NCBI GenBank assembly: GCA_028753945.1
Contig: JAPNXP010000001.1
Span: 17,412,501-17,476,500 of the forward strand
Reading direction: 5' to 3'
Length of the DNA stretch: 64,000 bases
From: Hexactinellida sp. DTS-2022
Lineage: Eukaryota; Porifera; Hexactinellida
How positions within the stretch are numbered: position 1 is the stretch's first letter; every line of letters starts with the position of its first letter. Shown in pieces: positions 9,294 through 61,128 of the stretch. The notes beneath the pieces are model-generated. The model searched no databases. It had not been told where the DNA came from and saw only the letters and a program-made list of their open reading frames with translations. Position numbers and translations under genes: made by a program.

Positions 9294-9645
9294 TGGCACT
9301 CCTAGATTTATAAAAATGACTCTTTAATACAGGAGGGTAAACGTTATTGATTTGGTGATAAACATTGCATTAACTAACATCAATAGATTATGTAATTTCC
9401 CTACTTGACTTTTCGGGTTAGTTAATTGATTAGTATATTAAATTAACCCTCTTGAATTTTTTAAATAATATTAGATTATAAAAATAAATTAAGTATTCTT
9501 TGGGAACATGAATTAGAAATGGAAAATTAGAAAACGAAAAAAATGTAGTTTAGTCCCCTGTGGATTGCTTAACCTTTGCGTTTTGAACTAACTGGTACCA
9601 CTCCTGCATATAAATGCAGTAGAGCTCCGCTTAATAGAGCCACTA

Positions 9646-11467: not shown

Positions 11468-11649
11468 ATTTATTGTATTTATTGATAGTCATTGGATATC
11501 AAATAGACACAATGGAATGCTAAAAATGTTAGGGGCGTCCACTCAATTCGTCTTTCTAGAATATGACTCCCTAACCACTGTATACGTGTATTTTACAGTT
11601 ATTTAAATACCCCTAGTTATATAAATGTGCTGTACATGATCAGGGACGT

Positions 11650-11935
11650 CGCCACGGGGGGGGCATAGGGGGGCAATGCCCCCCCTGGTAAAAATCCTCG
11701 CCCCGGGGCAATGCCCCCCCTGGTAGAAATCTTTGCCCCGGGGCATGCCCCCCCTGGTAAACCCTTGCCCCGGGGCATGCCCCCCCTGGTAAACCCTTGC
11801 CCTGGGGCATGCCCCCCCTGGTAAACCCTTGCCCTGGGGCATGCCCCCCCTGGTAAACCCTTGCCCCAGGGCATGCCCCTCTGGTAAACCCTTGCCCCGG
11901 GGCATGCCCCCCTTGTAAATTATTGCCAAATGAAT
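11650..11935 (+). repeat. GC-rich minisatellite inside hAT copy 1
   Basis: About eight units of roughly 31 bp (GCCCCGGGGCATGCCCCCCC then TGGTAAACCCTT) lie just inside the left terminus. The same array is in copy 2. Open frames read through it are artefacts of the repeat. Confidence 0.9.
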
Positions 11936-12506
11936 TGTTATGCGATCGATATAACGGAAATTTGTTTCAAGTTCATCTAAATAGTAATTATACATATTTG
12001 ATTGCATTATAGTACCATACGTGATGAGTAATAAACTATTTATATTTGAGACCACCCACTATGGTGTTATGTCTATTATGCGCTAATCTCACGATATTCA
12101 ATTTATATAATATCTGTTTTGAAACTTTTAGCTTTAATTCTTATTCTAATTTTTTTACCCTCTTAATTAACTCAATTAATAATTCGGCCTAAGGCTCACC
12201 TGTACTGTTTGTTGTTCATTTTCAAATTACAGTATACTCTCGTTAATTAATACGAACACGGATAAGACGAAATATCGGGATAGAATGTTTGAATTCACCA
12301 GCCTATAAAAATGCATACAAATTACTCGGATTAATTAGAATTCCGGACAAGAAGAACCAATTTCAAAGGTTCTCTTGTGTTGTATGAACGATAGTCTACT
12401 GTTTGCTACAGTCATACTTACAGTCTAATATCTACATTTTCGATAAATACTTTATTTACATAATTACATTGTGTTGTTCGAAGCTCTTGTAGATATATCT
12501 TTGGTG

Positions 12507-14990
12507 ATGGATCAATATACAATTGGAATGAAGCGTAAGGCTATTAGTGTCGCAGCTGAAGACGAATATATCCAAACAGTAATTAGTACTGACCAATTTT
12601 TGACTGAAAATGTAGATGTAATGTCTGAAGTGGTCGATAATTCTGAAGTGGTTGACAACTTCGGCGACAACGAATGTGACAAGCAACAAGATGGCAATTC
12701 TAGAATTGAAATAGTTCTTGGTGAGACACAGGTGAGGCCCAAATTAACAAACTACCACCTTTCATGTTTTGGAAAAAGGAAAGAAAGGCGAGCCTTTACA
12801 AACGGGATGTATGAACGATTCGATTGGCTTGAGTATTGTGTTGAAAAGGATGTCGCTTTATGTTATCCTTGCAGAAAATTTAAAGTTCCTAATTCCGAAA
12901 AAACAGGATTTTTTGGTACAGATTATAAAGTATTCGCCAAATATGGTTTCAACAATTGGAAAAAAGCCTTAGATAAAGGCCAAGGCATGTACAAGCACGC
13001 TGCTAGCGTTCACCACATTGAAGCCGTAAAATTGTGGAAAGAGTCATTACAGCGCGAGCAGAATGATACACGTATCACAGATATACTACCTCATGAAGCA
13101 GAACACAAAGCATGGTTAGAAAGCGTTTTCCTTGTAACTAAGCTTTTGAGTACAAATGGAGAACCTTTTCGAGGGAATAGAGAAAACACCATGTTTTGTG
13201 ACAGTGAATGTGACACTGACAGTGAAACCGAAAACGATGATGAATTTAGGCGTGATCAGAGTTTGAGACAAAAAGGCGGCGGTCTTTTTCTTAATTTATA
13301 TGAGGAACTTATATTTAAAGTACAACCTGAACTTCACGAAATCGCTAAAACTCTCCCTAAAAATGCAAAATATTGTTCACCCTCATTTCAGAACGAAGTA
13401 ATTGAATTGTTGGATGTCGTATTAACTGCTAGAATTGTTGCTGATATAAAACAAGCTGAATTATTCACTCTGATGGTTGATGGCACAACCGACAAAAATG
13501 GTAAAGAAATAGAGGGAATTGTTTTGCGCTATACTATATCCACTTCAGGAGTTGAAGAACATGCGCTTACATTTTTCCATGCTTCTGATCGTTCTGCGAG
13601 AGGTATTTTCAATGCCGTGAAAAGAGTCCTTGATCAACATGGCATATCGTTTGATGGCCTTGTTTCAAATACTTTTGACGGCGCTTCGGTTATGTCTGGG
13701 TTTAAAGGTGGGGTACAAGCCCACATCCAGAATTATTGCGAACGAAATGTCGTGTACGTTCATTGCGCCAACCATAGAATACACCTAGTTGTCATGGCGA
13801 TTTTGAAAAGTGTTCCTGCAGTTGAGGATTTTTTCAGTTTCATTATGTCTCTCTATACATTGTTTAAGGTCGATTCCATTCGCAGAATTTACAAAGGTCG
13901 TACATTAAAAAAAATAATAACGACCCGATGGTCAGGACATCTCAATTCTCTGAAGATTGTATCGTCCGAGTATGCTGAGATACGAAGAACCCTTAGCATT
14001 ACCGTCACATCCACAGACGTGAAGTCTCAACATAGAGTTGCCGCTAAATCTCACCTAGCTTTGTTAAATACAAATGGTACAATGTTTCTGTTGATGTTTT
14101 TACTTGATGTGCTAATGCCGATTAACATTCTAACACTTTTGTTTCAAAGTCCCAAATTCGACTCCAGCTGTTTAATCACCACTATCGCCTCAATTCAGAA
14201 AGAAATTTTTAATTTAAAGGAAAAAATTAATGAAGAATTTATCAATGACAAAATAGCTCAACTGGGTGACGAGATTAATGAGGTTACTGTTAGTGGTATT
14301 ACTAATAGGCCAGCCAGATCTAAAAAATTACCTGCGCGTTTTGATTCTGATGACATATTGCTAACGGAACAGTTCAGCAAAAGTACGAGTAATTCGTCTC
14401 TCCCCGACTTGGAACGATTGGCAATTGAAATTATTGACAATGTAGACGCTCAATTTACTGAACGATTTTCTAAGAACAACACTCAGTTATGGACTTCCTA
14501 TGAAGCACTTAATCCACATTCCGATAAGTTTCTGGACCCCTATTCACTTCGTCCATTGTATGACTATGCGTTGTCTATTCCCTCTGTCAAAAAGAATCTT
14601 CTGGATAGCTCCTTTGAAACACTTAGGAGCGAATGCGTTGTTTTTAAAGAACCTCTACGTGCACAACCCTGGAAGTTGCAAAATAACGGCGCGATAGAGA
14701 ATATATCCGAAGTTTATCTATATATTCAAAATAAACTGCAATTTTCTGCGAAAAATCTTGCTGTCTTGTTTCATGTAGCTATAACAGCTGGTTATTCGTC
14801 TGCAAGAGTAGAATGTGCATTTTCTGCATTAGCCCGTATTGATACCCCTCTGCGCAGACACATGAAAACTGAGCGAGAACTGAGACTTGCGCATCTTCAT
14901 TTTGAAAAAGATACTGTGCGGAGAATAACATTTCATGAATTTGTCAAAGAATGGAACGTAAAACCACGAAGGTTAAGAATTAAAATTTAA
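12507..14990 (+). CDS. hAT-family transposase (TTF-finger/DUF4371 type), 827 aa
   Basis: The start is the ATG at 12507 (MDQYTIGMKRK); longer frames upstream begin at non-ATG codons. Residues about 75-165 form a TTF-type zinc-binding region (CFGKRKERRAF, CYPCRKF, KHAASVHH). The RNase-H-like core follows, with the first Asp in MVDGTTD (D325), the second in NTFDGASVMSG (D391), and the C/DxxH motif CANHRIH. The C-terminal hAT dimerisation segment has SSARVECAFSALARID with the expected catalytic Glu (E769). It binds the ends of its own element and performs cut-and-paste transposition in the nucleus. It is uninterrupted and shares its sequence with 39626-42109, so it is probably functional. Some ZMYM1-like host genes derive from this group, but the flanking terminal repeats mark this one as a transposon gene. 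Confidence 0.95.
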   Translation: MDQYTIGMKRKAISVAAEDEYIQTVISTDQFLTENVDVMSEVVDNSEVVDNFGDNECDKQQDGNSRIEIVLGETQVRPKLTNYHLSCFGKRKERRAFTNGMYERFDWLEYCVEKDVALCYPCRKFKVPNSEKTGFFGTDYKVFAKYGFNNWKKALDKGQGMYKHAASVHHIEAVKLWKESLQREQNDTRITDILPHEAEHKAWLESVFLVTKLLSTNGEPFRGNRENTMFCDSECDTDSETENDDEFRRDQSLRQKGGGLFLNLYEELIFKVQPELHEIAKTLPKNAKYCSPSFQNEVIELLDVVLTARIVADIKQAELFTLMVDGTTDKNGKEIEGIVLRYTISTSGVEEHALTFFHASDRSARGIFNAVKRVLDQHGISFDGLVSNTFDGASVMSGFKGGVQAHIQNYCERNVVYVHCANHRIHLVVMAILKSVPAVEDFFSFIMSLYTLFKVDSIRRIYKGRTLKKIITTRWSGHLNSLKIVSSEYAEIRRTLSITVTSTDVKSQHRVAAKSHLALLNTNGTMFLLMFLLDVLMPINILTLLFQSPKFDSSCLITTIASIQKEIFNLKEKINEEFINDKIAQLGDEINEVTVSGITNRPARSKKLPARFDSDDILLTEQFSKSTSNSSLPDLERLAIEIIDNVDAQFTERFSKNNTQLWTSYEALNPHSDKFLDPYSLRPLYDYALSIPSVKKNLLDSSFETLRSECVVFKEPLRAQPWKLQNNGAIENISEVYLYIQNKLQFSAKNLAVLFHVAITAGYSSARVECAFSALARIDTPLRRHMKTERELRLAHLHFEKDTVRRITFHEFVKEWNVKPRRLRIKI

Positions 14991-15980
14991 CTTTCACAAT
15001 CAACATTCAAATGATTCAATTATTATTATTATGTACGTATATAAAACTTGATAATTTCATATTATAATCAACTCTCGTTAATACGACCACGAGGTGACCT
15101 TGAAAATTTATTGGTGGTATCCGAAATTCGCACTTACCGTAACCTATGTAAATTGCATACGTTTATATGGTCTGCGGGAAAAATTTTCTTAACCAGGGTT
15201 TCATCTAGGTTTACGCGAGTCGGCTACTGGTAAACTCGTGCCCCCCCTGGTAATTCTTTTGCCCCCCCTAGATGAAAAATCCTGGCGACGTCCCTGTACA
15301 TGATGGCCGATTCACAATATTAAGCACTAACTTGGTATCATTTCTAACATAGCCTAGCTTTACTACTTGAATATACCAGAGGAGAAATAAGAATATTATT
15401 GCAATGATGGATTTGATGGGAAATAAGCGTAAATTGACGATCGATTTACCAAACTATTTGACTGAATATTTATCTGATAGTTCTAGAAATGGGGTTTGAG
15501 GGCCTCCATGTAGCAAAAATTCCCCCCATAGTTTTATAGTGCCTCAAAATTGTCAACGAAATACTGTCCCGAGGTAGGACAGTCTGACAAATTTATTCGT
15601 GTGCGTCCACAAAACTACCTCTGCGGGCTCCCTTGCAATGATTGGAAATTAATCGGAACCATTGACTATACTGTATATACTGTTCTTTAAAATAAGACCT
15701 CAAGGCAACTAAGGAATGTAGAAACATTCTATTTTGAGTCGGATATTTTATGGATAAAACCCATAGATCAAGTAATTACATAAGCTTGTTTAAAAATATG
15801 AAATTAAACATTTTTTATGCTTTCAAATTTTGTTATTTATTAGCAATCTTGTGACCTCATTTCTTCCTACTCGCACCTTCTTAATAATCACAAATACATT
15901 TAAAGTGTAGTACCCTAGACTTCGAAAATAATGGAATTTGCTTATATTTAGTACAATATATTGGCACATTCCGGTGTCGG

Positions 15981-24692: not shown

Positions 24693-26096
24693 CTAGAAAT
24701 CGATACTTTTTCTAGCATTGCAACGTATAACTACTGCACTGGTGTCTGGTTCTCTCTTCCTCTTCATCATCAGGCATAATTTATTCTTTGAACAAGAAAA
24801 GTTGAGAACTGATAGAACTAATATGAATAAGGAACGAATACCAAGATCGTGTATGAAAATAATGAAGAATGGGTCTCTATGTTCTACTAACAGTTGGTCT
24901 TCAGGAGATAGCAAGGAAAGAGTTGAATTAAGTTTAAATGAATTTATAGTATTTGGAGAATACGGGCTATTCAGGGTTAAATAGGATGCATAATCGTTAG
25001 AATTTTTATCGTTTATATTCTTAAAAATAAATAATGAGGATAAGGTAATAGTAATTACGGCATTTAAAACAAAGTATACGATAGTGAAGAATATGAGTCG
25101 CTTCTCAATTGGCTGTATGCCTACACGTTTACCAGTTCTAACTGACCCCATTTGTATTTGGCTATGGATCCTATACACTATGAGAACAATTAGGGTTATA
25201 GTTAACCCCCCGATACTAAGTTGCGGTAAAATGCCAAATATAGCACTGTGAATCTTACTGGCAGATAAAGGGATCATTAAAGTATTTGATAGAGCATATC
25301 CTGAGAATGGAACAAATGGAGCCAATCCACCCACCACTGGATACACCACACATATAGATATCTCAGCAACAACAATTATAATTCTATTTCGCTTTCTATT
25401 TAATATATCCCGCATTGGGAAGGTTGCTAAGAATATGAGCACAAGAGCCATCACGAACCAGAGACGATTGGAAATAGAAAGTGTATTCATAAGAGCACCA
25501 ATCATATGGACCTGTATGGTTGGATCAGCATTCAGTGTTGCATAATTGATCTGTCTCCCTTCACAGTAAAAAATATTGGCGCCTAAAATGTCTGGAATAC
25601 CACCGACAATGGACTGGAGTAAATTAACGAAGACCCCAATGAAGATTGGATGATGCTGGAATCTATACTTTTTGTAAAACCTTATTATCCTATAGATAGC
25701 TAGTATGGTGACACCAGTGTTAATCACTGCTATAGCACTGAGAAGCACCCTCTTGAAGATGGTGAGAGGGAGTGGATAGTTATCATAGTTACCACATACT
25801 GTACTGCATCTCTGTTCCCTGCGGGAGAATGTATAGCCTTCTGGACACAGCACAGTAACGTTAGAAAGATTCAGCTTATCCAGCAGCATTTCGTTCTGTG
25901 AGATATTGTATTTTGGAAATGAATTAGAAAGCAATATTGGCAGAATTGGAGTGATGGTTATCATCCATCCTGGGAAAATACAGGAAAAAGCAATTATTCT
26001 CCAAATCAAAAGTTTCTTCTTATTGAACTTTCTGTTTATTCGAGTTTGCTTATTTCCATTATCAAGATTGACTGCTATTTGCGTGCTACCTTCCAT
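24693..26096 (-). CDS. Seven-transmembrane receptor-like protein 7TM-1, Frizzled-like layout without CRD
   Basis: The likely start is the ATG at 26096 (MEGSTQIAVNL), with TATATAAG 30 bp upstream; about 467 aa, one exon. An N-terminal hydrophobic segment (GWMITITPILPILL) precedes a short ectodomain with N-glycosylation sites and a Cys cluster (VLCPEGYTFSRREQRCSTVCG). Seven helices follow. The third cytosolic-side helix (PIEKRLIFFTIVYFVLN) recalls the Frizzled/Smoothened TM6 pattern, and the arrangement around TM1-TM2 (FQHHPIFIGVFVNLL) also fits class F. There is no Cys-rich Wnt-binding domain and no KTxxxW tail. Function is unknown; membrane receptor is the safe call and class F membership is a tentative inference. 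It is one of three paralogues. Confidence 0.75.
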   Translation of the reverse strand: MEGSTQIAVNLDNGNKQTRINRKFNKKKLLIWRIIAFSCIFPGWMITITPILPILLSNSFPKYNISQNEMLLDKLNLSNVTVLCPEGYTFSRREQRCSTVCGNYDNYPLPLTIFKRVLLSAIAVINTGVTILAIYRIIRFYKKYRFQHHPIFIGVFVNLLQSIVGGIPDILGANIFYCEGRQINYATLNADPTIQVHMIGALMNTLSISNRLWFVMALVLIFLATFPMRDILNRKRNRIIIVVAEISICVVYPVVGGLAPFVPFSGYALSNTLMIPLSASKIHSAIFGILPQLSIGGLTITLIVLIVYRIHSQIQMGSVRTGKRVGIQPIEKRLIFFTIVYFVLNAVITITLSSLFIFKNINDKNSNDYASYLTLNSPYSPNTINSFKLNSTLSLLSPEDQLLVEHRDPFFIIFIHDLGIRSLFILVLSVLNFSCSKNKLCLMMKRKREPDTSAVVIRCNARKSIDF

Positions 26097-26125
26097 TCCT
26101 TGCAAGAACACGATATTTTGTCTTA

Positions 26126-26133
26126 CTTATATA
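26126..26133 (-). promoter_or_regulatory. TATA box of 7TM-1
   Basis: TATATAAG on the minus strand, 30 bp before the ATG at 26096. The same octamer stands 38 bp before 7TM-3 and 47 bp before the Ser-cathepsin gene. Confidence 0.5.
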
Positions 26134-27585: not shown

Positions 27586-28968
27586 CTAAACTTCAGTTGC
27601 CACAGTTACAGAATAATTCTTTGCAAAGCTTTGTGTATTATTGATAACCTTCTTCGTACATAGTTTAGGCTTTGAGCAAGAAAAGTTAAGAACAGACAAA
27701 ACTAATATGAATAAAGAACGAATGCTGAGATCATGAACAAATATAATAAAGAACGGATTTCTAAACTGTATCAATAGTTGATCTTCTGAGGACAACAGAG
27801 ATAGAGTTTTATTCGTCCCGTTTGAGGGAATACTTGTGAAAGAATAAGGGCTATTCAATGTTAGGTAGGAAGCGTAGTCATTTGTCTTAGTACGGATGGA
27901 ATTAATAAAAATTGTTATTATAATTATCGAGAATGAAATAATCGCATTCAAAGCAAAGTATAGAACTGAGAAGAATATGAGTCGCTTCTCAATTGGTTGT
28001 ATGCCAATATGTCTTCCTGTTCTGCTCGAACCAATTTGAAGTTGACTGTGTATCCGATATACTATAAGCACAATAACAGTTAGGGTGAGGCCGCCAATTA
28101 ACTGTTGTGGTACCAAGTTGGTTATAACTTCAATTGTTCTATCGTTGGCATTGGTAGTCATGGAATACTGAAATAACCTGTACCCTGAGAAAGGAAAGAA
28201 GGGAACTAAAGCACAAATTAATGGAAAAATAAGACACACTCCGATTTCAACGAGTACTATGATAATTCTGTTCCATTTATTTCTATATATGTCTTTAAAT
28301 GGAAATGTTGCTAGGAAAATAAGCGCAAGTGCAATGACAAACCAAAGGCGGTTTGATAGAGATAAGAATCGAAGCAGAGCACCATGAATATGAAGTTGTA
28401 TGGCAGGGTTATTATTCAATCTGTTGTAAGTAATTTGTTGGCTCTCACAGAAAAAGATATTGGCACCTAAAATATCCGGTACTCCCATAATAATGGCCTG
28501 AATTAGGTTCACGAAGACTCCTATAAAAATGGGATGATGTTGGAACTTGTACTTTTTGCGATACCTTATCAGCCTATAGATAGCTAGTATGGTGACACCA
28601 GTGTTAATCACTGCTATTGCACTGAGCGACACTCTCTTGAAGATGGTGAGAGGGAGTGGATAGTTATCATAGTAACCACATACTGTACTGCATCTCTGTT
28701 CCCTGCGGGAGAATGTATAGCCTTCTGGACACAGCACAGTAACGTTAGAAAGATTCAGCTTACGTAGTAACATCTCATTCTGTGAGATATTGGATCTGGG
28801 AAAAGAATCGGCAAGAAAAAGTGGTGGGATAGGAGCAGTTGATACTATCCATCCCGGAATTATACACAATAAAGCTATTGATCTCCAAAACCAGAGTTTT
28901 CTCCTGCTGAACTTTGATGTTGTATTTACAAGATTGCTAATCGAATTCTTCCCATCCATACTATCCAT
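27586..28968 (-). CDS. Seven-transmembrane receptor-like protein 7TM-2
   Basis: Start ATG at 28968 (MDSMDGKNSISN), 460 aa, one exon, same strand as 7TM-1. It has the same plan: a hydrophobic segment (SIALLCIIPGWIVSTAP), a short glycosylated ectodomain with the Cys cluster, seven helices, and PIEKRLIFFSVLYFALN, close to the Frizzled TM6 consensus. The C-terminal tail is short (CSKPKLCTKKV). Overall similarity to 7TM-1 is strong. The 219-bp block 28573-28791 is far more alike than the rest. No stops or frame breaks. Ligand and coupling are unknown. Confidence 0.75.
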   Translation of the reverse strand: MDSMDGKNSISNLVNTTSKFSRRKLWFWRSIALLCIIPGWIVSTAPIPPLFLADSFPRSNISQNEMLLRKLNLSNVTVLCPEGYTFSRREQRCSTVCGYYDNYPLPLTIFKRVSLSAIAVINTGVTILAIYRLIRYRKKYKFQHHPIFIGVFVNLIQAIIMGVPDILGANIFFCESQQITYNRLNNNPAIQLHIHGALLRFLSLSNRLWFVIALALIFLATFPFKDIYRNKWNRIIIVLVEIGVCLIFPLICALVPFFPFSGYRLFQYSMTTNANDRTIEVITNLVPQQLIGGLTLTVIVLIVYRIHSQLQIGSSRTGRHIGIQPIEKRLIFFSVLYFALNAIISFSIIIITIFINSIRTKTNDYASYLTLNSPYSFTSIPSNGTNKTLSLLSSEDQLLIQFRNPFFIIFVHDLSIRSLFILVLSVLNFSCSKPKLCTKKVINNTQSFAKNYSVTVATEV

Positions 28969-30810: not shown

Positions 30811-30847
30811 TAGATCGTAAATTTGACTAAAAGGAGTTCTTATAACA

Positions 30848-32191
30848 ATGTTCAACAGAAATAGAAGATTCACTCAGCCAAAAGGGAATAATTTACAACA
30901 AATAAAAAATAGCAAATTATCTGGAAGTTGGAAGTTAAGGAAAAGGAGTGTATTAACTTGCTTGAGTATATTGTTAATTTGGGTTATTGCATTAGTTCCT
31001 ATTGCACACAGAATATACACTCATTCTGAACGAAAATCCAATATCTCACAGAACGAAATGCTGCTGGATAAGCTGAATCTTTCTAACGTTACTGTGCTGT
31101 GTCCAGAAGGCTATACATTCTCCCGCAGGGAACAGAGATGCAGTACAGTATGTGGTTACTATGATTACTATCCACTCCCTCTTACTATTTCTAAGAGGGT
31201 GCTGCTCAGTGCTATAGCAGTGATTAACACTGGTGTCACCATACTAGCTATCTATAGGCTGATAAGGTATCGCAAAGAATACAAGTTCCAACACCATCCC
31301 ATATTTATAGGTGTATTCGTTAATTTACTTCTCTCAGTCATCATTGGGATACCTGACATCGTTGGAGCCAAAATATTCTTCTGTAATGGTGAAGAGATTG
31401 ACTATGCAACACTGAATGCTAATCCAACCATTCAGATCCATATCCATGGTGCTCTTATACAAGCTGTATCATTGTCTAATCGTCTCTGCTTTGTGATGGC
31501 CCTTGTGCTTATTTTCCTAACAAATTTTACAATGCAGGATATTTTTAGCTACAAGAGGAATAGAGTTATCTTAATACTCATTGAGAGTGTTATATGTCTA
31601 TTCTTTCCAGTGACCTGTGCAGTTATATCCTATCAGACTGGATATGTGTTCGCTCCACGTTTGATGATGCCAATAGCTCGTGATAAGCTCGTAGGATTGA
31701 TATTTGGTATCACGCCACACCTCACCATTACAGGGATAACGCTAACTTTAATCGTATTTATTTTGTATTATAACCATTGTCGAACACGAAATTCATCCAT
31801 AACCAAGAAACAAAGAGAATTGATTCCAATTGAAAAGAGGATCATGTTCTTCTCAGTACTGTACTTTGTGCTGAATATATTTATTGTGATGACTCTAGTA
31901 AGCACTTCTAGTCCCCAGGATCCCTTCTCTACAGGATCAGAAGAGAGAGAATCCCTGGTAACGTTGGAGAGTTTGTATTCCACTGATGCAACGCGTCCTA
32001 TTGCAGGAACACACAACCAAACACTCTCCCTACTGTCCACATCAGATCAGGCCCTAATACAACCAAGCAACTCCTCATGGGATATTCCTATCCAAACTTT
32101 AAGTATTAGATTGCTATTCATTGTTGTGCTATCTGCGCTAAACTGTTGCATTAAGGACAGAGTGCAACAGGATACACATAAGATCTCATAG
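30848..32191 (+). CDS. Seven-transmembrane receptor-like protein 7TM-3
   Basis: Start ATG at 30848 (MFNRNRRFTQPKG), 447 aa, one exon, opposite strand to its two paralogues. Basic N-terminus, hydrophobic segment (LSILLIWVIALVPIA), the shared NISQNEMLLDKLNLSNVTVL and Cys cluster, seven helices, and IPIEKRIMFFSVLYFVLN before TM6. The extracellular loop before TM7 is long and polar (SPQDPFSTGSEERES). The tail lacks KTxxxW. Near-identity to the paralogues is confined to 31040-31258. An AATAAA lies at 32249-32254, about 60 bp past the stop, and could serve as poly(A) signal. Confidence 0.75.
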   Translation: MFNRNRRFTQPKGNNLQQIKNSKLSGSWKLRKRSVLTCLSILLIWVIALVPIAHRIYTHSERKSNISQNEMLLDKLNLSNVTVLCPEGYTFSRREQRCSTVCGYYDYYPLPLTISKRVLLSAIAVINTGVTILAIYRLIRYRKEYKFQHHPIFIGVFVNLLLSVIIGIPDIVGAKIFFCNGEEIDYATLNANPTIQIHIHGALIQAVSLSNRLCFVMALVLIFLTNFTMQDIFSYKRNRVILILIESVICLFFPVTCAVISYQTGYVFAPRLMMPIARDKLVGLIFGITPHLTITGITLTLIVFILYYNHCRTRNSSITKKQRELIPIEKRIMFFSVLYFVLNIFIVMTLVSTSSPQDPFSTGSEERESLVTLESLYSTDATRPIAGTHNQTLSLLSTSDQALIQPSNSSWDIPIQTLSIRLLFIVVLSALNCCIKDRVQQDTHKIS

Positions 32192-38500: not shown

Positions 38501-38768
38501 ACTCTACATAGACATGTTCTAAACTCACTGAGCTATCATCTCCTAACATTTGCTGGATATTCTTATACTTGTTTTGCGAATACTGCTTTAATGAACTTTC
38601 CCACTTTTGTACCTCTTTTGCTTGTAGCTTGACTTCTCGTTTGAATCTACTTTCGAATTCTTCATCCTCCATTTCACTGAACATCACGCGATATGCTTTC
38701 AACTTTTCTACTAGATCTATTCTTTGGATTCTTTTGAGAATTTCAGAGAGTGTACTTAGCAGGGACGT

Positions 38769-39055
38769 CGCCACGGGGGGGGCATAGGGGGGCAATGCCC
38801 CCCCTGGTAAAAATCCTCGCCCCGGGGCAATGCCCCCCCTGGTAGAAATCTTTGCCCCGGGGCATGCCCCCCCTGGTAAACCCTTGCCCCGGGGCATGCC
38901 CCCCCTGGTAAACCCTTGCCCTGGGGCATGCCCCCCCTGGTAAACCCTTGCCCTGGGGCATGCCCCCCCTGGTAAACCCTTGCCCCAGGGCATGCCCCTC
39001 TGGTAAACCCTTGCCCCGGGGCATGCCCCCCTTGTAAATTATTGCCAAATGAATT
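38769..39055 (+). repeat. GC-rich minisatellite inside hAT copy 2
   Basis: Same array of about eight 31-bp units as in copy 1, immediately inside the left terminus. A long open frame that appears to fuse it to NLR-2 is fortuitous. Confidence 0.9.
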
Positions 39056-39625
39056 GTTATGCGATCGATATAACGGAAATTTGTTTCAAGTTCATCTAAA
39101 TAGTAATTATACATATTTGATTGCATTATAGTACCATACGTGATGAGTAATAAACTATTTATATTTGAGACCACCCACTATGGTGTTATGTCTATTATGC
39201 GCTAATCTCACGATATTCAATTTATATAATATCTGTTTTGAAACTTTTAGCTTTAATTCTTATTCTAATTTTTTTACCCTCTTAATTAACTCAATTAATA
39301 ATTCGGCCTAAGGCTCACCTGTACTGTTTGTTGTTCATTTTCAAATTACAGTATACTCTCGTTAATTAATACGAACACGGATAAGACGAAATATCGGGAT
39401 AGAATGTTTGAATTCACCAGCCTATAAAAATGCATACAAATTACTCGGATTAATTAGAATTCCGGACAAGAAGAACCAATTTCAAAGGTTCTCTTGTGTT
39501 GTATGAACGATAGTCTACTGTTTGCTACAGTCATACTTACAGTCTAATATCTACATTTTCGATAAATACTTTATTTACATAATTACATTGTGTTGTTCGA
39601 AGCTCTTGTAGATATATCTTTGGTG

Positions 39626-42109
39626 ATGGATCAATATACAATTGGAATGAAGCGTAAGGCTATTAGTGTCGCAGCTGAAGACGAATATATCCAAACAGTA
39701 ATTAGTACTGACCAATTTTTGACTGAAAATGTAGATGTAATGTCTGAAGTGGTCGATAATTCTGAAGTGGTTGACAACTTCGGCGACAACGAATGTGACA
39801 AGCAACAAGATGGCAATTCTAGAATTGAAATAGTTCTTGGTGAGACACAGGTGAGGCCCAAATTAACAAACTACCACCTTTCATGTTTTGGAAAAAGGAA
39901 AGAAAGGCGAGCCTTTACAAACGGGATGTATGAACGATTCGATTGGCTTGAGTATTGTGTTGAAAAGGATGTCGCTTTATGTTATCCTTGCAGAAAATTT
40001 AAAGTTCCTAATTCCGAAAAAACAGGATTTTTTGGTACAGATTATAAAGTATTCGCCAAATATGGTTTCAACAATTGGAAAAAAGCCTTAGATAAAGGCC
40101 AAGGCATGTACAAGCACGCTGCTAGCGTTCACCACATTGAAGCCGTAAAATTGTGGAAAGAGTCATTACAGCGCGAGCAGAATGATACACGTATCACAGA
40201 TATACTACCTCATGAAGCAGAACACAAAGCATGGTTAGAAAGCGTTTTCCTTGTAACTAAGCTTTTGAGTACAAATGGAGAACCTTTTCGAGGGAATAGA
40301 GAAAACACCATGTTTTGTGACAGTGAATGTGACACTGACAGTGAAACCGAAAACGATGATGAATTTAGGCGTGATCAGAGTTTGAGACAAAAAGGCGGCG
40401 GTCTTTTTCTTAATTTATATGAGGAACTTATATTTAAAGTACAACCTGAACTTCACGAAATCGCTAAAACTCTCCCTAAAAATGCAAAATATTGTTCACC
40501 CTCATTTCAGAACGAAGTAATTGAATTGTTGGATGTCGTATTAACTGCTAGAATTGTTGCTGATATAAAACAAGCTGAATTATTCACTCTGATGGTTGAT
40601 GGCACAACCGACAAAAATGGTAAAGAAATAGAGGGAATTGTTTTGCGCTATACTATATCCACTTCAGGAGTTGAAGAACATGCGCTTACATTTTTCCATG
40701 CTTCTGATCGTTCTGCGAGAGGTATTTTCAATGCCGTGAAAAGAGTCCTTGATCAACATGGCATATCGTTTGATGGCCTTGTTTCAAATACTTTTGACGG
40801 CGCTTCGGTTATGTCTGGGTTTAAAGGTGGGGTACAAGCCCACATCCAGAATTATTGCGAACGAAATGTCGTGTACGTTCATTGCGCCAACCATAGAATA
40901 CACCTAGTTGTCATGGCGATTTTGAAAAGTGTTCCTGCAGTTGAGGATTTTTTCAGTTTCATTATGTCTCTCTATACATTGTTTAAGGTCGATTCCATTC
41001 GCAGAATTTACAAAGGTCGTACATTAAAAAAAATAATAACGACCCGATGGTCAGGACATCTCAATTCTCTGAAGATTGTATCGTCCGAGTATGCTGAGAT
41101 ACGAAGAACCCTTAGCATTACCGTCACATCCACAGACGTGAAGTCTCAACATAGAGTTGCCGCTAAATCTCACCTAGCTTTGTTAAATACAAATGGTACA
41201 ATGTTTCTGTTGATGTTTTTACTTGATGTGCTAATGCCGATTAACATTCTAACACTTTTGTTTCAAAGTCCCAAATTCGACTCCAGCTGTTTAATCACCA
41301 CTATCGCCTCAATTCAGAAAGAAATTTTTAATTTAAAGGAAAAAATTAATGAAGAATTTATCAATGACAAAATAGCTCAACTGGGTGACGAGATTAATGA
41401 GGTTACTGTTAGTGGTATTACTAATAGGCCAGCCAGATCTAAAAAATTACCTGCGCGTTTTGATTCTGATGACATATTGCTAACGGAACAGTTCAGCAAA
41501 AGTACGAGTAATTCGTCTCTCCCCGACTTGGAACGATTGGCAATTGAAATTATTGACAATGTAGACGCTCAATTTACTGAACGATTTTCTAAGAACAACA
41601 CTCAGTTATGGACTTCCTATGAAGCACTTAATCCACATTCCGATAAGTTTCTGGACCCCTATTCACTTCGTCCATTGTATGACTATGCGTTGTCTATTCC
41701 CTCTGTCAAAAAGAATCTTCTGGATAGCTCCTTTGAAACACTTAGGAGCGAATGCGTTGTTTTTAAAGAACCTCTACGTGCACAACCCTGGAAGTTGCAA
41801 AATAACGGCGCGATAGAGAATATATCCGAAGTTTATCTATATATTCAAAATAAACTGCAATTTTCTGCGAAAAATCTTGCTGTCTTGTTTCATGTAGCTA
41901 TAACAGCTGGTTATTCGTCTGCAAGAGTAGAATGTGCATTTTCTGCATTAGCCCGTATTGATACCCCTCTGCGCAGACACATGAAAACTGAGCGAGAACT
42001 GAGACTTGCGCATCTTCATTTTGAAAAAGATACTGTGCGGAGAATAACATTTCATGAATTTGTCAAAGAATGGAACGTAAAACCACGAAGGTTAAGAATT
42101 AAAATTTAA
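39626..42109 (+). CDS. hAT-family transposase, 827 aa (second copy)
   Basis: Start ATG 39626. The protein is identical to the one at 12507-14990: TTF-type zinc region, D325 and D391 of the catalytic core, the CANHRIH motif, and the dimerisation segment with E769. It lies antisense within NLR-2. No lesions, so this copy is also a candidate autonomous element. Confidence 0.95.
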   Translation: MDQYTIGMKRKAISVAAEDEYIQTVISTDQFLTENVDVMSEVVDNSEVVDNFGDNECDKQQDGNSRIEIVLGETQVRPKLTNYHLSCFGKRKERRAFTNGMYERFDWLEYCVEKDVALCYPCRKFKVPNSEKTGFFGTDYKVFAKYGFNNWKKALDKGQGMYKHAASVHHIEAVKLWKESLQREQNDTRITDILPHEAEHKAWLESVFLVTKLLSTNGEPFRGNRENTMFCDSECDTDSETENDDEFRRDQSLRQKGGGLFLNLYEELIFKVQPELHEIAKTLPKNAKYCSPSFQNEVIELLDVVLTARIVADIKQAELFTLMVDGTTDKNGKEIEGIVLRYTISTSGVEEHALTFFHASDRSARGIFNAVKRVLDQHGISFDGLVSNTFDGASVMSGFKGGVQAHIQNYCERNVVYVHCANHRIHLVVMAILKSVPAVEDFFSFIMSLYTLFKVDSIRRIYKGRTLKKIITTRWSGHLNSLKIVSSEYAEIRRTLSITVTSTDVKSQHRVAAKSHLALLNTNGTMFLLMFLLDVLMPINILTLLFQSPKFDSSCLITTIASIQKEIFNLKEKINEEFINDKIAQLGDEINEVTVSGITNRPARSKKLPARFDSDDILLTEQFSKSTSNSSLPDLERLAIEIIDNVDAQFTERFSKNNTQLWTSYEALNPHSDKFLDPYSLRPLYDYALSIPSVKKNLLDSSFETLRSECVVFKEPLRAQPWKLQNNGAIENISEVYLYIQNKLQFSAKNLAVLFHVAITAGYSSARVECAFSALARIDTPLRRHMKTERELRLAHLHFEKDTVRRITFHEFVKEWNVKPRRLRIKI

Positions 42110-42909
42110 CTTTCACAATCAACATTCAAATGATTCAATTATTATTATTATGTACGTATATAAAACTTGATAATTTCATATTATAATCAACTCTCGTTAA
42201 TACGACCACGAGGTGACCTTGAAAATTTATTGGTGGTATCCGAAATTCGCACTTACCGTAACCTATGTAAATTGCATACGTTTATATGGTCTGCGGGAAA
42301 AATTTTCTTAACCAGGGTTTCATCTAGGTTTACGCGAGTCGGCTACTGGTAAACTCGTGCCCCCCCTGGTAATTCTTTTGCCCCCCCTAGATGAAAAATC
42401 CTGGCGACGTCCCTGGTACTTAGGTCTCTTTCGATCAAATGTTTTTCCAACATTTTGTTTAATGTCATCTCAAAATCAACATTATCGATTGTTTCGTCCG
42501 TTGCAACAAACATGTAGTATATCAGTATCCAATTATCCTTTGTTATTTCAGTTTTCAACAAATCGATTAAGGATTTAATGGATAGTTCATCCTCTTGGTA
42601 GCATTCAACAGGTGATGATGCACAACAAAGCCATGGAATCATACATGCTATTTCTATCAGATCAGGACGGATATCTCGTAATGCTTTGTAGAATAAATAG
42701 GGTCTATGTCCTTTCCAATTTTTTATTTCAGGCAAGAACAACACTGGGCTTGTTAAATTCTTTTCAGAAATTGCCTCGGGCGTTTGCATCAAAGTTAATA
42801 ATCGCGTTTTATCGGAAATTGAGAGCTGTGTGCTAAATCATATGCCGCTCCGAGTGCGTCGAAATTCATTATATTCTGGTTCTAAATAGGGTGGTAAGAG
42901 ATAGAATCA

Positions 42910-51607: not shown

Positions 51608-54356
51608 ATGGCGAGCTTGAACATTTTGGTTATTACACTGGTGTGTATAGTATATTATACTAGATTGTCACTTGGGTATGGGAGGAGAGAAATAAGTGAG
51701 GAATCTTGGTTTAAATGGAAGGTAGAATTCTATAAGAATTATTCAAGTAAAACTGAAGAGATGGAGAGAAGGGGAATTTGGGAAAGGAACGTTGAATCAA
51801 TTATTGAGTTTAACACAAAGAATGAATCTTATCTTGAAGGCAACAATCAGTTCTCTGATCGGGTAAGTGCTATCGTTTAAATACAATCTGGACAAACAAA
51901 CAAACAACAACCGAGTTTAATAATATAGATATGTTAGCAATGCAAATAATGTAATTTCAAATTAAACAAGACAGCGGTTTCAATATTGATAAATAAATTT
52001 TACAATAAATCAGCTATAATGTGTAAATTATGAATACAAGTACATGTATTACTTAAGAAATATTTAATTATAATATACGTATAACAAATAGACTGAAAGG
52101 GAAGTGCTCAGGATCGTACATGGATTCAATTCCCATTCTGATATCAGAATGCAGAGACCTTACAACTACTACAATTCCAGTGGATACATATTTAATGTTC
52201 CTACTCATGTCGATTGGAGAAATGAACATAGAGTGACTGGTGTAAAAGATCAGGTATATTTTGTTTGTTGCAAATAAATAAATTCAAATTATAAAAAGTT
52301 GAAATCAGTTTGATATTGATCACAGAATTAGAATATAAATTTCATATAATCTCTGTGTATTACATAAGTAATTATGTTTATAGTGTTTGAAAAACCCGGC
52401 ACCTATAATGAACCCTATCTGGATCAAAAAAATTCATCAAATTAATATTTAAGTAAAAATATCCGTTCTGTTTATATTCTGAAAGCTTAATAAATAAAAA
52501 ATCAGCTAAATTGTTCTACTATAAGAATGACTTTGCATCATTACATATCAGGGTTCTAAAAAATGAGTGTAAAAATTAAGGCGACTTAATTTTGGTCATT
52601 CATATCTACTCGCCATATTTTTTTTCGTCCGAGCTCCAATTGATTTACTAGCCTTATTTTTTTCAGAATTACCCCTCTAGGTTCACTAGACTTAGTTTTT
52701 TTTTCGATCCTACCTCAATTGGTTTACTTACCTTATCTTTTTTTCAGTCATAGCCCAATTGCTTTACCCAGGGGCAGCATACCCGGTACGGCTGGTGCGG
52801 CGAGCGCCGTACCACTTTTCAGGATGGTCAGCTTTGCTGTACCACCTAAATTAACAATTCATTGATAATTTAATGATTTAATAAATTAATAATAGCCGAA
52901 AGTTATTCAAATAACTGGTGCAGCGTCGCCGGACCATACCATATACGAATACCTGGTGCAGCCTCATCGGGCCAGATACAAATATTGTAAAATACTCCGC
53001 CGTACCACTTTCCTAAAAGACTTGCCGCGCCTGCAACCTTTAATCCATTTAAGTCTGAATAAACGTTGATTAGCCACAATTTTTCAACCCAATGGATAAT
53101 TTAACTCGTCTAAATTTTTATATTTCGCTTTTTTCATTTATCATACTCACCATATTATTTTTTCTTAAAATAAAAAAAAACAAGCTTATGGCGAGTAAAA
53201 ATACTAAGGCGTGTAAAACCCTGTTACATATACATATATTTAATTGCAACTATTATAGGGTAGTTGTGGATCTAGCTGGGCATTTAGTGCCACTGGTAGT
53301 GTTGAGGGACAGTACGCTAAGAGAACAGGTAGACTAGTATCTTTCTCTGAACAGCAACTGTTGGATTGCTCCTGGGGATACGGAAACAAGGGGTGTCATG
53401 GAGGAAGTATGGTTAATGCCTTCAGATATATAGAGGATCATAGAACTGAGAGAGAAGATGATTATCCATACACAAGCGATGTAATTTGTTAATGTAGATG
53501 CAGCGGTGTTCGTCTAATAGCAATTGGTCTATAATAATTGCTCTAATAGCAAGTTAATATCAGTGCCTAAGTGAGCAATTAATTTTAATTTTGTTAGTAG
53601 CAAGTTTGCCTATTAGCAAGCAAATTTCGTGCAAAATTCGACTTGCTATTATGCGAACACCACTTAATATAAAATGAACATACAGTCAACACCCGTTAAT
53701 TCGAATACTCGTTAATTCGAACAAATGTAATAATCCTTTGAGAGTCCGAATTAATTGATGTTGACTGTACTGAGGAATTACAGAAGTATTTAATAATATT
53801 CTCATAAACTTTACGCTTAATTGGGACAAATCTCACGAACAAAATCATTCCACAGAAGCTAATGTTAATTTATTCGGTAAATCGGGACAAATTCTTCTTA
53901 ATTGGGACAAAATTTCGGTTAAATTATCGTTTAATTAAACCAAATACTATATACTATTTAGAATAACTACTGCTAACTACTCTTATTTAGGATGAAATGT
54001 GTAACAAAAGAGATTCATTCGGTATGCTAAACACCAAATGGTTTGTGCAGATTCCCTCAGAAGACTGCACTCTATTGAGGAGAGCAGTGACAGAGATCGG
54101 TCCCATATCCGTAGCTATTGACGCTTCGCAGCGCAGCTTCCGCCACTACTCTAACGGAGTATACAGGAGCAGCAACTGTTCAGCTAGCCAGCCTAATCAC
54201 GCTGCACTCGTTGTAGGGTACAGCATGGAGAAAGGAGGATACTGGATTGTTAAGAACAGCTGGGGAAAGCTATGGGGAGAGGAGGGATACTTTAAATTAT
54301 CTATGGAGGGCAATATGTGTGGTGTATGCACTCAGGCCTCATATCCAGTTGTGTAG
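51608..54356 (+). CDS. Cathepsin L-like protein with active-site Cys replaced by Ser (silicatein-like), 334 aa
   Basis: Exons 51608-51862, 52092-52253, 53259-53480 and 53991-54356; all introns are phase 0 with GT-AG ends. Signal peptide MASLNILVITLVCIVYY. The propeptide has an ERFNIN-like pattern (EEMERRGIWERNVESIIEFN) and GNNQFSD. The mature domain begins near VPTHVDWRNE. The catalytic stretch reads [18 protein letters not shown]: the nucleophile codon is AGC (53274-53276, Ser145), while the Cys next door in CGS is kept. His283 (NHAALVVGY) and Asn302 (VKNSWG) are present, as are the disulphide Cys residues. It is full length and lesion-free, so it is not an obvious pseudogene. Sponge silicateins, which template silica, are cathepsin L relatives with this same change. 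Alternatives are a catalytically dead inhibitor or scaffold like TINAG. It is secreted or vesicular by its signal peptide. It pairs with the Cys paralogue 2.3 kb downstream. Confidence 0.88.
53511..53664. mobile_element. 'TAGCAA' MITE in intron 3 of the Ser-cathepsin gene
   Basis: GGTGTTCGTCTAATAGCAAT at the left and CTATTATGCGAACACCACT at the right, TA after the right end. Intronic, coding unaffected. Confidence 0.75.
53683..53767. mobile_element. 85-bp TA-flanked MITE in intron 3
   Basis: The ends CAGTCAACACCCGTTAATTC and TTAATTGATGTTGACTG are flanked by TA. Internal GTTAATTCGAA units. Confidence 0.82.
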
Positions 54357-56650: not shown

Positions 56651-59600
56651 ATGAAATACATAGTAGTATTCGTCCTCTGCTTATTAGCATTAACTAATGC
56701 GAAGCTCTTTTTTGATGCGAATATTGTGATCAATGTGGACATGGACAGTGAATGGGAGGATTGGAAACAGACACACAAAAGGATATACGACTCTGAGATT
56801 GAAGAGGAGGCACGGAAGACTATCTGGCTAGATAACCTGGTGTACATACAGACCTTCAACAGCGAGAAACACTCATTTACACTGGGACTGAACCAGTTCT
56901 CAGATCTGGTGAGTCCACTAATTACATTAATTACGTCATTCTCTATAATGTATTGATATACTATGTATATAGAATATTCAGGAAATAATTACTACATATT
57001 CCGCTTAATTGTGGGACACGTTGTTTCAGCAGTCTATGTGCAGTGTTTTTTTAAGGCAAATTAGAGGCCCAAAATGGGCTTCTAATTTTTCTCAATGGGC
57101 CTCTAATTTTAACGTGCTAAGTACTCAATATCATGAAATGTAGAGTGAGGGTCTCTAATTGTTGGTAGGGCCCTCTAAGCAAATCCTTAAAAAAAACACT
57201 GACTATGTGCATTGCATATTAAACGGAGTCGAATGTCTAAGAATAAATTTTCCTGTAAAATTATCAAGAAAATCTTAATTTGTTCTGTAGAAGCGTTAAA
57301 TAAAACATACTATAGTCGTAATAGCATAGCAAGGCATATTAATTAATATATTTTATAGATAATTATTCAAAATAATATATAATAACTTTATTGGCCATTA
57401 AAGTAGAGTAGGAAATAGTAAACACGTACGTGTATATTAAGAGTTTAATTGGACTACACTTTCAATACCTAAGGATTAAATATTGGATAACTAACTGTAT
57501 CAATAGACTAACAAAGAGTTCAGGGAAATTTACTTGGGCTACGACTTCGAACAGAGTCTACGGACTAGGAACGGGACTCTGCACGAAATGAGTGGTATGC
57601 CACTTGCTGACACTGTGGACTGGAGAACAAAGGGAGCTGTGACACCTGTGAAGAATCAGGTTTGTGATTTATACTTATTTGTTATCTTGTATAAATCATT
57701 ACTTTGACCATTTAAGAAAGATAACTATCATTTTAAATAAATACGATTCATATACAGTCGACACTGCTTAATAGAGCCACCTCGGAACCAGGTTGATTTG
57801 ACCCGATTAAGCGGAGAAACCGATTAACCGAAAATAATGTAGGCCAAACTGCAATTCTGTCCTATAAATCCTGTGAAATTTTGACCCGATTAAGCGGGCA
57901 AACCGATTAACCAGTGGCTCTATTAAGCGGAGTTGACTGTATATGTAGTAAATAAATGTATGAATAATAACAAATATCTTATTTCAATTTTAATTAAATC
58001 TTATGATTACTTACTAAATTAATGTTTATTTTTACACTTAAACTATGCAAATGAACAAATTTTTCGTATTATGAGGGAATGTTTATCAAAGTATCCTAAA
58101 ATTGTCTTGGTGATATGAAATTTCATATTATAATATTAAATAAATTAGACATACCCAAGGCTGGATTCGGTAAACCGGTCTGCTAACTATTGGCAGTGTA
58201 TTTGGATTATTTTTGCATAAAGATCTAAATTATGTTAATTTTGTTAGATATAATAATCCTATATCCATTTCCCAAAAGTAAATTTCAGTAAAAACTTTGT
58301 TTATAATTGACTAAATTACGAAATGTGTCAGCTAATGTACTTATTGACTGACAATTTAAAACTGAGTTAACCCCACTTAACCAACCCCACCCTGAGCAAA
58401 CCTGACAACCATCATATAAAATAACATAATATAACCTCGTTAGTACGAACACCAGGCAGGGTTGGGTTCAATTATATTTTTATATTTGATTACAGTTACA
58501 ATTACAACTAGTTTTAATTTGCAATTATAATTACAATTACAATTACAAGCAACTTTAATTTCCAATTATAATTATAATTACAGTTATAATTGGGAATTTA
58601 CTCCCAATTACAATTACAATTACAAATACAAAACTGATGCTATATTCAAATATATCTTCAATATAATTCATATAAAGTTTGTTATCTTAAGTATTATTTG
58701 GATCTACCCTATTAATATGGTGACCAAAACCAATAATGTTAAGAATTAACACATAAGTACGTTAATTGGGATTGCAAGCGAGCTTTAGCCTTTGGGCATA
58801 ACTAAGACGTAATTACAATTGTGTACTCCAATTACAATTACAATTATGTCAATTTTTTTCAATTACAATTACAATTACAATTACGAAGTTTTTCAATAAT
58901 CAATCACAATTACAATTACAATTACAATTATGTACAAAACGTAATTAATTGTAATTAATTAATTACAATTATAATTGAACCCAACCCTGACACCAGGGGA
59001 CCACCAAAATTTGTTGGCCTTAAAGACTGTTTTCTCTTTGTATGTTGGATTTATTATTGTATATAAAAAAATTATATTTTAAGTATTGATGTCACTAAGT
59101 CTTTTCAGGCAGTTATTCTTTTTGCTGATGTACTTTAGCAGTTATTTTCTTTTTTGTTGTTGCACTAATAATAATAATAATTATTATTATTCTTATCCGA
59201 AATTCGTATTAACCGATATCATTTGTATTGAAAAGGCTTTGAAGGGGACATAAATAGTGTTAGTATTAACCGTGTTCGTAGTTGACGAGGTTTTACTACA
59301 GTATATACAAGTTTGTCAGAGAACGATCAATTTATACGAACTATTAAGAATTTAAGAACAAAGAGCACTTAGAACTAGGAACCTTTATAACTTAAAATAC
59401 AAAGGAGTATTTTATTTCGAAAAAATGAAACCCTAAATTACCAGGTAACACATAACAAGTGGTCCTCTAAAACAGGATCCAAACTGGTGGCAGATTAAAG
59501 ATTGGTAATGATATAAATGGTTAATATTTAATGTAATTCTTATAAAATTAATTAAAGTATATATCTTAGTATACGAGGCATGGAGTCCGATAGTTTTCAA

Positions 59601-61128
59601 AATGTTTAAATCCTAGCATTTGCCTACTGCAAAAGATTTAAGCCCTTTGGTTCTTTTAAAAAAGGCTTAAACCTTTTACATCTGGTCGCATGCCTCTTAG
59701 TCACTATATGTATGTAATGTATATGTCGCAGTGTTTCATACAGGATTTGCTTGCAAGGGTCTGGGGTATGTAAATTCTTAAGGGAGCATAGATTAAAACT
59801 TCGTTAAGTTTAAGTGGTTTTTCTTCCCGTATGAAACCCTGTATCGGTATATAGGAAAAATGTGGATCCTGCTGGGCATTTAGTGCTACAGGAAGTCTGG
59901 AGGGCCAACACTTCCTTAAGACTGGAAACCTTGTGTCATTGTCAGAGCAGCAGCTAATAGACTGTTCCAAAAAGTATGGAAATCATGGCTGCAAAGGTGG
60001 ACTGATGGATCTCGCATTCAAGTATTTCGAAATATTCCCAGATGAAACTGAGAGAGACTATCCTTACAAAGCTAAGGTACATATTGACACATCTTATATG
60101 TGTAATTATTGGTTTAACCAATTGGGAATATTATCTACTTTAATAAGAATTTAAGGAAATTCAAGGTGGCATATTTCCTAAAATGATGAAAATTGTGTGA
60201 ATAGAACAACATACGTAGTATAGACTATTGATCTTTCGAAATATGCAATAAACCCTTCAAATAGTATACATTCTTTTTTCAAAAGTTTGTGTCCAGGCTT
60301 AAACCAAACTATAATTAACTAAATTTGTTTTAAAAATAACATTATAAAATTATTCAATATTATATACACTCAAATAAATCTTGTACATCCCATTTACTTC
60401 TCAAAAGGGGAAAAATTATAGGAAGAATTTCCTATAATTCTTGTCTCTGATTCATATTAGAAACACATAGTTAAAAGTAATAATAGTTGATTGTACAGTG
60501 GATGCCGGTTATATGAACATCGTCGGGAACTGCATATAATGTTCTTATAACCGACATGTTCCTATAACCGGCATAAATGATATAGGGTATATGGCAACCG
60601 CTTTCCGGTAGAGTGTTCTTATATCCGGGATGTTCTTATAACCGGTGTTCTTGTTACAAATACTGTATTACAAATATAAATTCAATAACCCAATAATTTA
60701 TAAGGACACATTCAAATTGTAGCTATAACTGAAATTAATAATCTGTCCTACGTATTTAGGACGGGGAATGCAGATATGAAGAAAGCCGTGGAGTTGTCGG
60801 AGACAACTCCTATCGCGATGTACCTCGAGGCAGCACTGCTGGGCTCGAGGATGCAGTGCAGAGTGTGGGACCTATCTCGGTGGCAATGGATGCTGGCCAC
60901 AGGTCATTCCAGTCCTACCATAGTGGAATATACGAGGATCCCGCATGCTCATCCTCTAGACTAGACCATGGAGTGCTCGTTGTTGGCTACGGTAGCGAGG
61001 ATGGAACAGATTACTGGGTGGTGAAGAACAGCTGGGGAGATATGTGGGGCATGGGAGGTTACTTCTATATAGAGAAAGGTAGGAACATGTGTGGTATCGC
61101 CACCCAGGCCAGCTACCCCATCGTGTAG
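56651..61128 (+). CDS. Cathepsin L-like cysteine protease, 333 aa
   Basis: Exons 56651-56908, 57507-57659, 59855-60076 and 60760-61128, all phase 0 with GT-AG ends. Intron positions match the upstream Ser paralogue exactly, and exon 3 is 222 nt in both, which shows tandem duplication. Signal peptide [17 protein letters not shown]. Propeptide [20 protein letters not shown] and GLNQFSD. The mature domain begins near [11 protein letters not shown]. The catalytic stretch [18 protein letters not shown] has the nucleophile Cys143 (TGC 59870-59872), His281 ([10 protein letters not shown]) and Asn301 (VKNSWG). It should be an active papain-family endopeptidase of lysosomes or secretion. Intron 2 (2.2 kb) and the other introns hold several MITEs. 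An AATAAA lies at 61321-61326, about 190 bp past the stop. Confidence 0.93.
57041..57201. mobile_element. MITE in intron 1 of the Cys-cathepsin gene
   Basis: CAGTGTTTTTTTAAGG at the left and CCTTAAAAAAAACACTG at the right. The flanks TCTATGTG and ACTATGTG give an 8-bp duplication with one mismatch. Confidence 0.8.
57755..57939. mobile_element. TA-flanked MITE in intron 2
   Basis: The ends CAGTCGACACTGCTTAATAG and TTAAGCGGAGTTGACTG, followed inward by GAGCCAC and its complement. TA flanks. Internal GACCCGATTAAGCGG units. An end of this family lies beside 9646. Confidence 0.85.
58432..59297. mobile_element. Tigger-like element in intron 2, carrying a nested MITE
   Basis: AACCTCGTTAGTACGAACAC at the left and TAACCGTGTTCGTAGTTGAC, then GAGGTTTTACTA, at the right. 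The terminal CAGTAG is worn. Interrupted by 58457-58989. Confidence 0.65.
58457..58989. mobile_element. hAT-type MITE with AATTAC microsatellite, nested
   Basis: The ends CAGGGTTGGGTTCAATTA and TAATTGAACCCAACCCTG-like sequence have a perfect 8-bp duplication ACACCAGG (58449-58456, 58990-58997). The interior is mostly AATTAC/ATTACA repeats. Confidence 0.9.
60495..60660. mobile_element. MITE remnant in intron 3 of the Cys-cathepsin gene
   Basis: CAGTGGATGCCGGTTATATG after TA at the left and CTTATAACCGGTGTTCTTG at the right, with TTCTTATAACCGG repeated inside. The right terminus is worn. Confidence 0.6.

Follow-up and report, generated by a model that had tools for sequence, protein, structure and literature searches.

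The window analyzed here, 64,000 nucleotides of contig JAPNXP010000001.1 from the hexactinellid sponge Hexactinellida sp. DTS-2022, contains two cathepsin L-like genes, which we refer to as gene A (51608-54356) and gene B (56651-61128); both lie on the plus strand. Gene A consists of four exons, all in phase 0 and bordered by GT and AG. Each exon length is a multiple of three, and the joined reading frame (1005 bases including the stop codon) codes for 334 residues and is free of frameshift, stop or splice lesions. As judged from the splice model, Pfam, sequence motifs and hydrophobicity, exon 1 (51608..51862) encodes a hydrophobic, signal-peptide-like N-terminus and an I29 propeptide, with the motifs ERWNIN at residue 50 and GxNxFxD at residue 78. 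Exon 2 (52092..52253) completes the propeptide and begins the mature domain, reaching as far as Gln139 (splice model and alignment with gene B); exon 3 (53259..53480) contributes the CGSSWAF active-site segment and a GCHGG segment (splice model and tblastn), and exon 4 (53991..54356) His283, Asn302, the C-terminus and the stop codon (splice model and residue check). Codon 145 (53274..53276) reads AGC and thus specifies Ser at the position where papain-family proteases possess their catalytic Cys; the alignment places a TGC codon there in gene B. The initial annotation of this DNA had described an intact four-exon gene with Ser145 in a CGSSWAF motif, and both the splice model and the sequence confirm this description.

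The surroundings of Ser145 are well preserved. Gln139, Cys142, Trp146, His283, and Asn302 are identical residues in the alignment with gene B, and the six usual disulphide cysteines, whose pairing we assume from general knowledge of such enzymes, are all found in gene A. The retention of His283, Asn302 and the disulphide cysteines, which had been claimed initially, is therefore borne out, and it extends to Gln139. Two further cysteines encoded by exon 4, Cys239 and Cys326, lie beyond the usual six and are absent from gene B; an additional disulphide could be conceivable for them. The protein also possesses four N-glycosylation sequons. Exons 3 and 4 have a GC content of 0.45-0.47 as compared to 0.23-0.32 in the three introns of the gene; across the window, GC ranges from 0.317 to 0.406 per 4-kb bin. 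Such GC values and the long single-exon open frames of the window would be compatible with a glass sponge: for Aphrocallistes vastus, 12,409 single-exon transcripts and 19,578 genes are reported, and scaffolds with more than 40% GC were flagged as candidates for bacterial DNA (PMC10282587). When the whole window was searched by tblastn with the A and B proteins (E up to 10), we recovered the exons of the two genes and otherwise matches with E values of 0.67 or worse; hence, the search revealed no second version of exon 3 with a Cys codon.

Pfam recognized a Peptidase_C1 domain (E 4.2e-70, 220 of the 220 profile positions) and an Inhibitor_I29 domain (E 1.6e-9) in the gene A protein and no domain besides these two, while NCBIfam assigned no family to it at E <= 0.01. 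An AF2 model derived from 32 sequences reached a mean pLDDT of 89.8 and had 302 matches in the PDB at E <= 0.001. The best 50 of these 302 matches are headed by 19 chains of 298-325 residues, 16 of which bear proenzyme titles (cathepsins L, S, K, H and relatives); the silicatein structure 6zq3 is absent from these best 50. The model speaks for a procathepsin fold and for nothing beyond it. When compared with human procathepsin L and gene B, gene A shares the I29 propeptide with its ERWNIN and GxNxFxD motifs, the C1 fold, the six disulphide cysteines and the Gln, His and Asn residues, and it differs by Ser in place of the catalytic Cys and by its two extra cysteines. Gene A hence has the features of the cathepsin L subfamily (C1A), i.e., an I29 domain with ERFNIN-type and GNFD motifs and the whole C1 profile on a papain fold, except that Ser145 replaces the Cys of the active proteases. 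The mature domain is 52% identical to that of gene B, 49% to that of human cathepsin L and 44% to that of silicatein-alpha. In the printed alignments, the human cathepsin L chains 1cjl, 6jd0, and 6jd8 carry CGSSWAF as well; we take their Ser to be engineered. Judging by the PDB titles, procathepsin H C26S (6czs) is a Cys-to-Ser cathepsin captured in its proenzyme form, and 7q8g ("Peptide ALAASS in complex with human cathepsin V C25S mutant") is one captured as a peptide complex. As the latter title indicates, a Ser-for-Cys cathepsin can still hold a peptide.

Gene B, the Cys paralogue, is laid out like gene A, with four exons that are all in phase 0: exon 1 at 56651..56908, exon 2 at 57507..57659, exon 3 with the motif CGSCWAF at 59855..60076, and exon 4 with the stop codon at 60760..61128. 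The two proteins are identical at 145 of 328 aligned residues (44%). Among the four-fold sites that fall in identical residues, 20 of 60 share their third base, which is near saturation. The initial annotation had stated that one base separates gene A from its neighbor; this is correct for codon 145 (TGC vs. AGC) but not for the proteins as a whole. Gene A is not a recent copy of gene B, and the allele-like duplicate that had been considered initially can be dismissed on the same figures. Both the layout and the best phylogenetic tree suggest that A and B are most likely tandem duplicates of one cathepsin L gene; given their low identity and the nearly saturated four-fold sites, this duplication, if real, would be old. 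The dN value between them is 0.61 and dS is not computable, so that we make no claim about selection from dN/dS of this pair.

The relationship of gene A to silicateins, for which the initial annotation had looked to phylogeny, was assessed with a tree of eight rows that included one silicatein (Tethya silicatein-alpha) and in which the catalytic column was masked. An earlier tree of 11 rows had also contained the loci L001-L003; none of its eight inner branches was starred, gene A joined the long branch of L002, and the three loci were then dropped. The best eight-row tree unites A and B with values of 97/97. A tree constrained to group gene A with silicatein is worse by 4.6 log units and has a p-AU of 0.284, a value obtained with eight rows, a single silicatein and long branches for both A and silicatein. 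The grouping of B with tick cathepsin L3 gives a p-AU of 0.291, and that of B with silicatein is nearly rejected (0.064). Since neither the A plus silicatein nor the B plus tick cathepsin L3 tree is rejected, the pairing of A and B, although favored by the best tree, is not proved.

Gene A has a branch length of 1.81 on the eight-row tree as compared to 0.30 for gene B, and it evolves faster than gene B against four of the six outgroups used in relative-rate tests. The changes in A and B numbered 33 vs. 11 with human cathepsin L as outgroup (p 0.0013), 36 vs. 13 with tick cathepsin L3 (p 0.0014), 32 vs. 16 with fibroinase (p 0.03), and 23 vs. 10 with cathepsin S (p 0.035); the differences were not significant with cathepsin K (22 vs. 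16, p 0.42) or silicatein (24 vs. 18, p 0.44). At 86 columns that are invariant in five Cys references, gene A is changed 16 times, gene B nine times and silicatein-alpha 11 times; besides the catalytic position, gene A is altered at seven such columns at which gene B is unaltered. Both A and B depart from the five references at eight shared columns, with the same residue at two of them, as might be expected of old tandem copies. The faster tempo of gene A would fit a loss of catalytic constraint and, equally, a generally relaxed constraint.

Gene A resembles silicatein-alpha (Tethya, PDB 6zq3) in combining Ser, His and Asn on a cathepsin L fold, and it has Ser for Cys with His and Asn kept, as silicateins do. 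The two differ in that gene A presents SSW (CGSSWAF) instead of the silicatein context ASY (CGASYAF) and is not the sister of silicatein in the best tree; moreover, its mature-domain identity to silicatein is lower than that to human cathepsin L or to gene B. We scored as silicatein-private those residues at which silicatein-alpha, the one silicatein used, differs from all five Cys references, with gapped columns dropped. Gene A shares nine of 65 such residues, Ser145 included, and gene B eight of 66; residue sharing hence gives gene A no overall excess over its Cys neighbor and was discarded as a sign of silicatein affinity. In the stretch before the active-site His (RSSNCSASQPNHA vs. DSSRCSSSSLNHA), which follows the pattern YxSSxCSxSxxNHA, gene A agrees at eight of 13 positions and gene B at six of 13. 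This stretch was likewise discarded, as the Cys-type protein L003, located on a bacterial contig, also reaches eight of 13. With the cathepsin L/silicatein chimera 2vhs, the bit score of gene A is 227, compared with 220-222 for mature human cathepsin L and 191 for silicatein-alpha; gene B shows the opposite order, with 249 bits for 2vhs and 264-267 bits for human cathepsin L.

An independently evolved silicatein-like protein with a structural or silica-templating role, in which the kept Ser, His and Asn would assemble or condense mineral, could account for Ser145 together with the intact Gln, for the local resemblance next to the His, for the score on 2vhs and for an A plus silicatein tree that is not rejected. 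The human cathepsin L variant C25S, which has the SSW context as well, is reported to have exceeded the silica yield of the wild type roughly threefold in one assay (PMC6233156). We nevertheless regard this explanation as improbable. The private residues, the 13-residue stretch and the identity values described above all speak against it, and ASY was needed by the chimera in the work of Fairhead, as PMC6233156 reports. In the glass sponge Aphrocallistes vastus, whose genome yielded no silicatein, one of 17 cathepsins (Avas.s001.g1214.i1) has Ser at the catalytic site, and it was not one of those with differential expression in the growing osculum (PMC10282587). Furthermore, one precursor is described as yielding silica in vitro with wild-type cathepsins and also when triad residues are mutated to alanine; earlier work with another precursor, as summarized in the same article, had found Ser and His to be necessary in silicatein (PMC6233156). 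Because such wild-type and triad-mutant proteins form silica in vitro, a role in silica formation is not readable from the Ser. Quite improbable, too, is the more specific proposal that gene A is a silicatein analogue that arose by a second Cys-to-Ser conversion of cathepsin L and that, as a structural or mineral-templating protein, converged on the Ser-rich stretch which precedes the active-site His of silicatein. Earlier claims of silicateins in glass sponges are now explained by contamination or by cathepsin L sequences that had been misread (PMC10772126), and a similar reappraisal has appeared elsewhere (PMC10280926). A silicatein link of gene A is unsupported, yet not rejected by the tree.

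TINAG and TINAL carry Ser at the catalytic position, and TINAG has an extra N-terminal extracellular domain and lacks an I29 propeptide; gene A, which combines I29 with C1 and has no other Pfam domain, is accordingly not of the TINAG type. Both human proteins are listed as inactive and papain-like in a review that describes the Ser-for-Cys substitution as rare, yet present in ever more families (PMC10318531). Ser-for-Cys cathepsins are already known in print. The cathepsin Avas.s001.g1214.i1 of A. vastus is similar by description in that it has Ser at its catalytic site. The SMIPP-C proteins of the scabies mite are expressed Cys-to-Ser papain-family paralogues that occur beside active copies; they have the Cys-to-Ser change in common with gene A, yet they are described as having a changed His and mutations of the oxyanion-hole Gln as well, residues which gene A keeps (PMC5956821). 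A further precedent for Ser in place of Cys is SERA5 of Plasmodium (PMC4671257). In Trichobilharzia, the cathepsin B1 paralogue TrCB1.6 is likewise devoid of the nucleophile, which was changed from Cys to Gly in this cathepsin B and from Cys to Ser in the cathepsin L-like gene A; it is reported to be processed in trans by active paralogues and to bind chicken cystatin (PMC7054455).

Among prokaryote genomes, a search with patterns placed off the nucleophile, one of which covers the catalytic Asn, matched 143 stretches with 107 relatives; the best 80 of these comprised 78 papain-family loci with Cys and two with Ser, a ratio that is not an animal base rate. One of the two Ser loci, L012, is also devoid of the His, and the other, L050, aligns poorly. 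In the papain-like protein of Paceibacterota encoded by L012 (3001-3615), Ser replaces the Cys and Gln the His; it may be a dead protease. The locus L001 (2602-3531) on a contig filed under a Chitinophagaceae MAG codes for a procathepsin-like protein that is almost complete (37%, query residues 32-334), and this contig may represent eukaryote contamination. Viral contigs searched with gene A alone gave no match. An alignment-based search of viral contigs found 27 loci, all with Cys, which do not constitute a base rate since one search pattern covered the active site.

Gene A is a real and intact Ser-for-Cys cathepsin L paralogue: the nucleophile is lost, the fold is kept and a paralogue with intact active-site residues is present. 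Between the two readings offered initially, a silicatein-like protein or a pseudoprotease, the latter is the likelier because gene A encodes an intact zymogen, has a tandem Cys paralogue, evolves faster against most outgroups and has published Cys-to-Ser precedents. We lean toward an independent Cys-to-Ser pseudoprotease paralogue that is predicted to bind without cutting. After the presumed duplication, the catalytic Cys of gene A would have turned into Ser independently of the silicateins. Its product, by Pfam and the AF2 model, would be a zymogen with signal peptide, I29 propeptide and papain fold that cuts peptide bonds barely or not at all and does not activate itself; by analogy with the dead cathepsin B paralogue, trimming in trans might be left to the product of gene B or another active protease. 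With the cleft and its Gln, His and Asn surroundings kept, the protein would most likely function by binding, in the endolysosomal or secreted space: it may hold peptides, propeptides or cystatin-type inhibitors and leave them intact, thereby sparing or tuning the active paralogue. Several points caution against a pure binder. Gln, His and Asn are all retained although a binder would presumably not need them, and the faster evolution might equally reflect relaxed constraint before loss. The rate difference depends on the outgroup, and the A and B pairing could be wrong. The analogy itself may be limited, since the cystatin binding of TrCB1.6 is described as weak, with none seen for human cystatins B and C and with an unprocessed proform that does not bind (PMC7054455).

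Instead of a protein retained for binding, gene A might be a young non-functional copy, i.e., a redundant tandem duplicate that was inactivated by C145S and whose decay has just begun. We judge this to be rather unlikely. Its faster evolution, its larger loss of invariant residues than in gene B and an adjoining Cys gene that could cover its function are consistent with such decay. Against it stand the lesion-free reading frame despite nearly saturated four-fold sites, the intact propeptide motifs, disulphide cysteines and Gln, His and Asn residues, and the GC contrast between exons 3 and 4 and the introns; none of these counterpoints fixes the date of the Cys-to-Ser change, which may still be recent. 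A serine-type hydrolase, in which the Ser-His-Asn triad would still cleave peptides or esters slowly and with a narrow substrate range, would be consistent with the kept helper residues, and silicateins are stated to have directly confirmed proteolytic activity (PMC6233156). In the crystal structure of the Tethya silicatein filament, by contrast, the triad geometry is inactive, as Ser and His lie too far apart for catalysis; the authors of that structure propose that rotation of a side chain might activate the triad (PMC7733841). The Cys-to-Ser cathepsins in the PDB, by their titles a proenzyme and a peptide complex (6czs and 7q8g), count against hydrolysis as well, and we consider it improbable here. 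Since the trait hangs on one base, AGC could also stem from a sequencing or assembly error or represent one allele; this is very improbable for an otherwise clean gene at a separate locus that has altered seven further invariant columns where gene B has not.

Gene A represents a cathepsin L with Ser for Cys, an otherwise intact site and none of the other silicatein features tested. Ser alone should therefore not be used to name a silicatein in a genome. The tandem Cys/Ser pair provides a clean natural system for asking why a dead cathepsin is kept.

Elsewhere in the window, we noted a 3.67-kb repeat with copies at 11631-15299 and 38751-42419 that are 99.9% identical and that each contain an 847-codon open frame and a 32-base minisatellite. 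The open frame of the second copy matches DUF4371 (E 6e-13), and we take it to be hAT-like. This copy sits between minus-strand frames that are NLR-like by eye, one of them with NACHT-type matches below the cut-off. Diverged copies of a long single-exon open reading frame, 82-84% identical in DNA pieces, are located at 24696-26126 (minus strand), about 28300-28930, and 30827-32188 (plus strand). By eye, they appear to code for multi-membrane-spanning proteins; a Pfam scan of two of the three gave no match. An open frame of 1061 codons at 6141-9323 on the minus strand contains a NACHT domain (Pfam E 8e-14) and is NLR-like.
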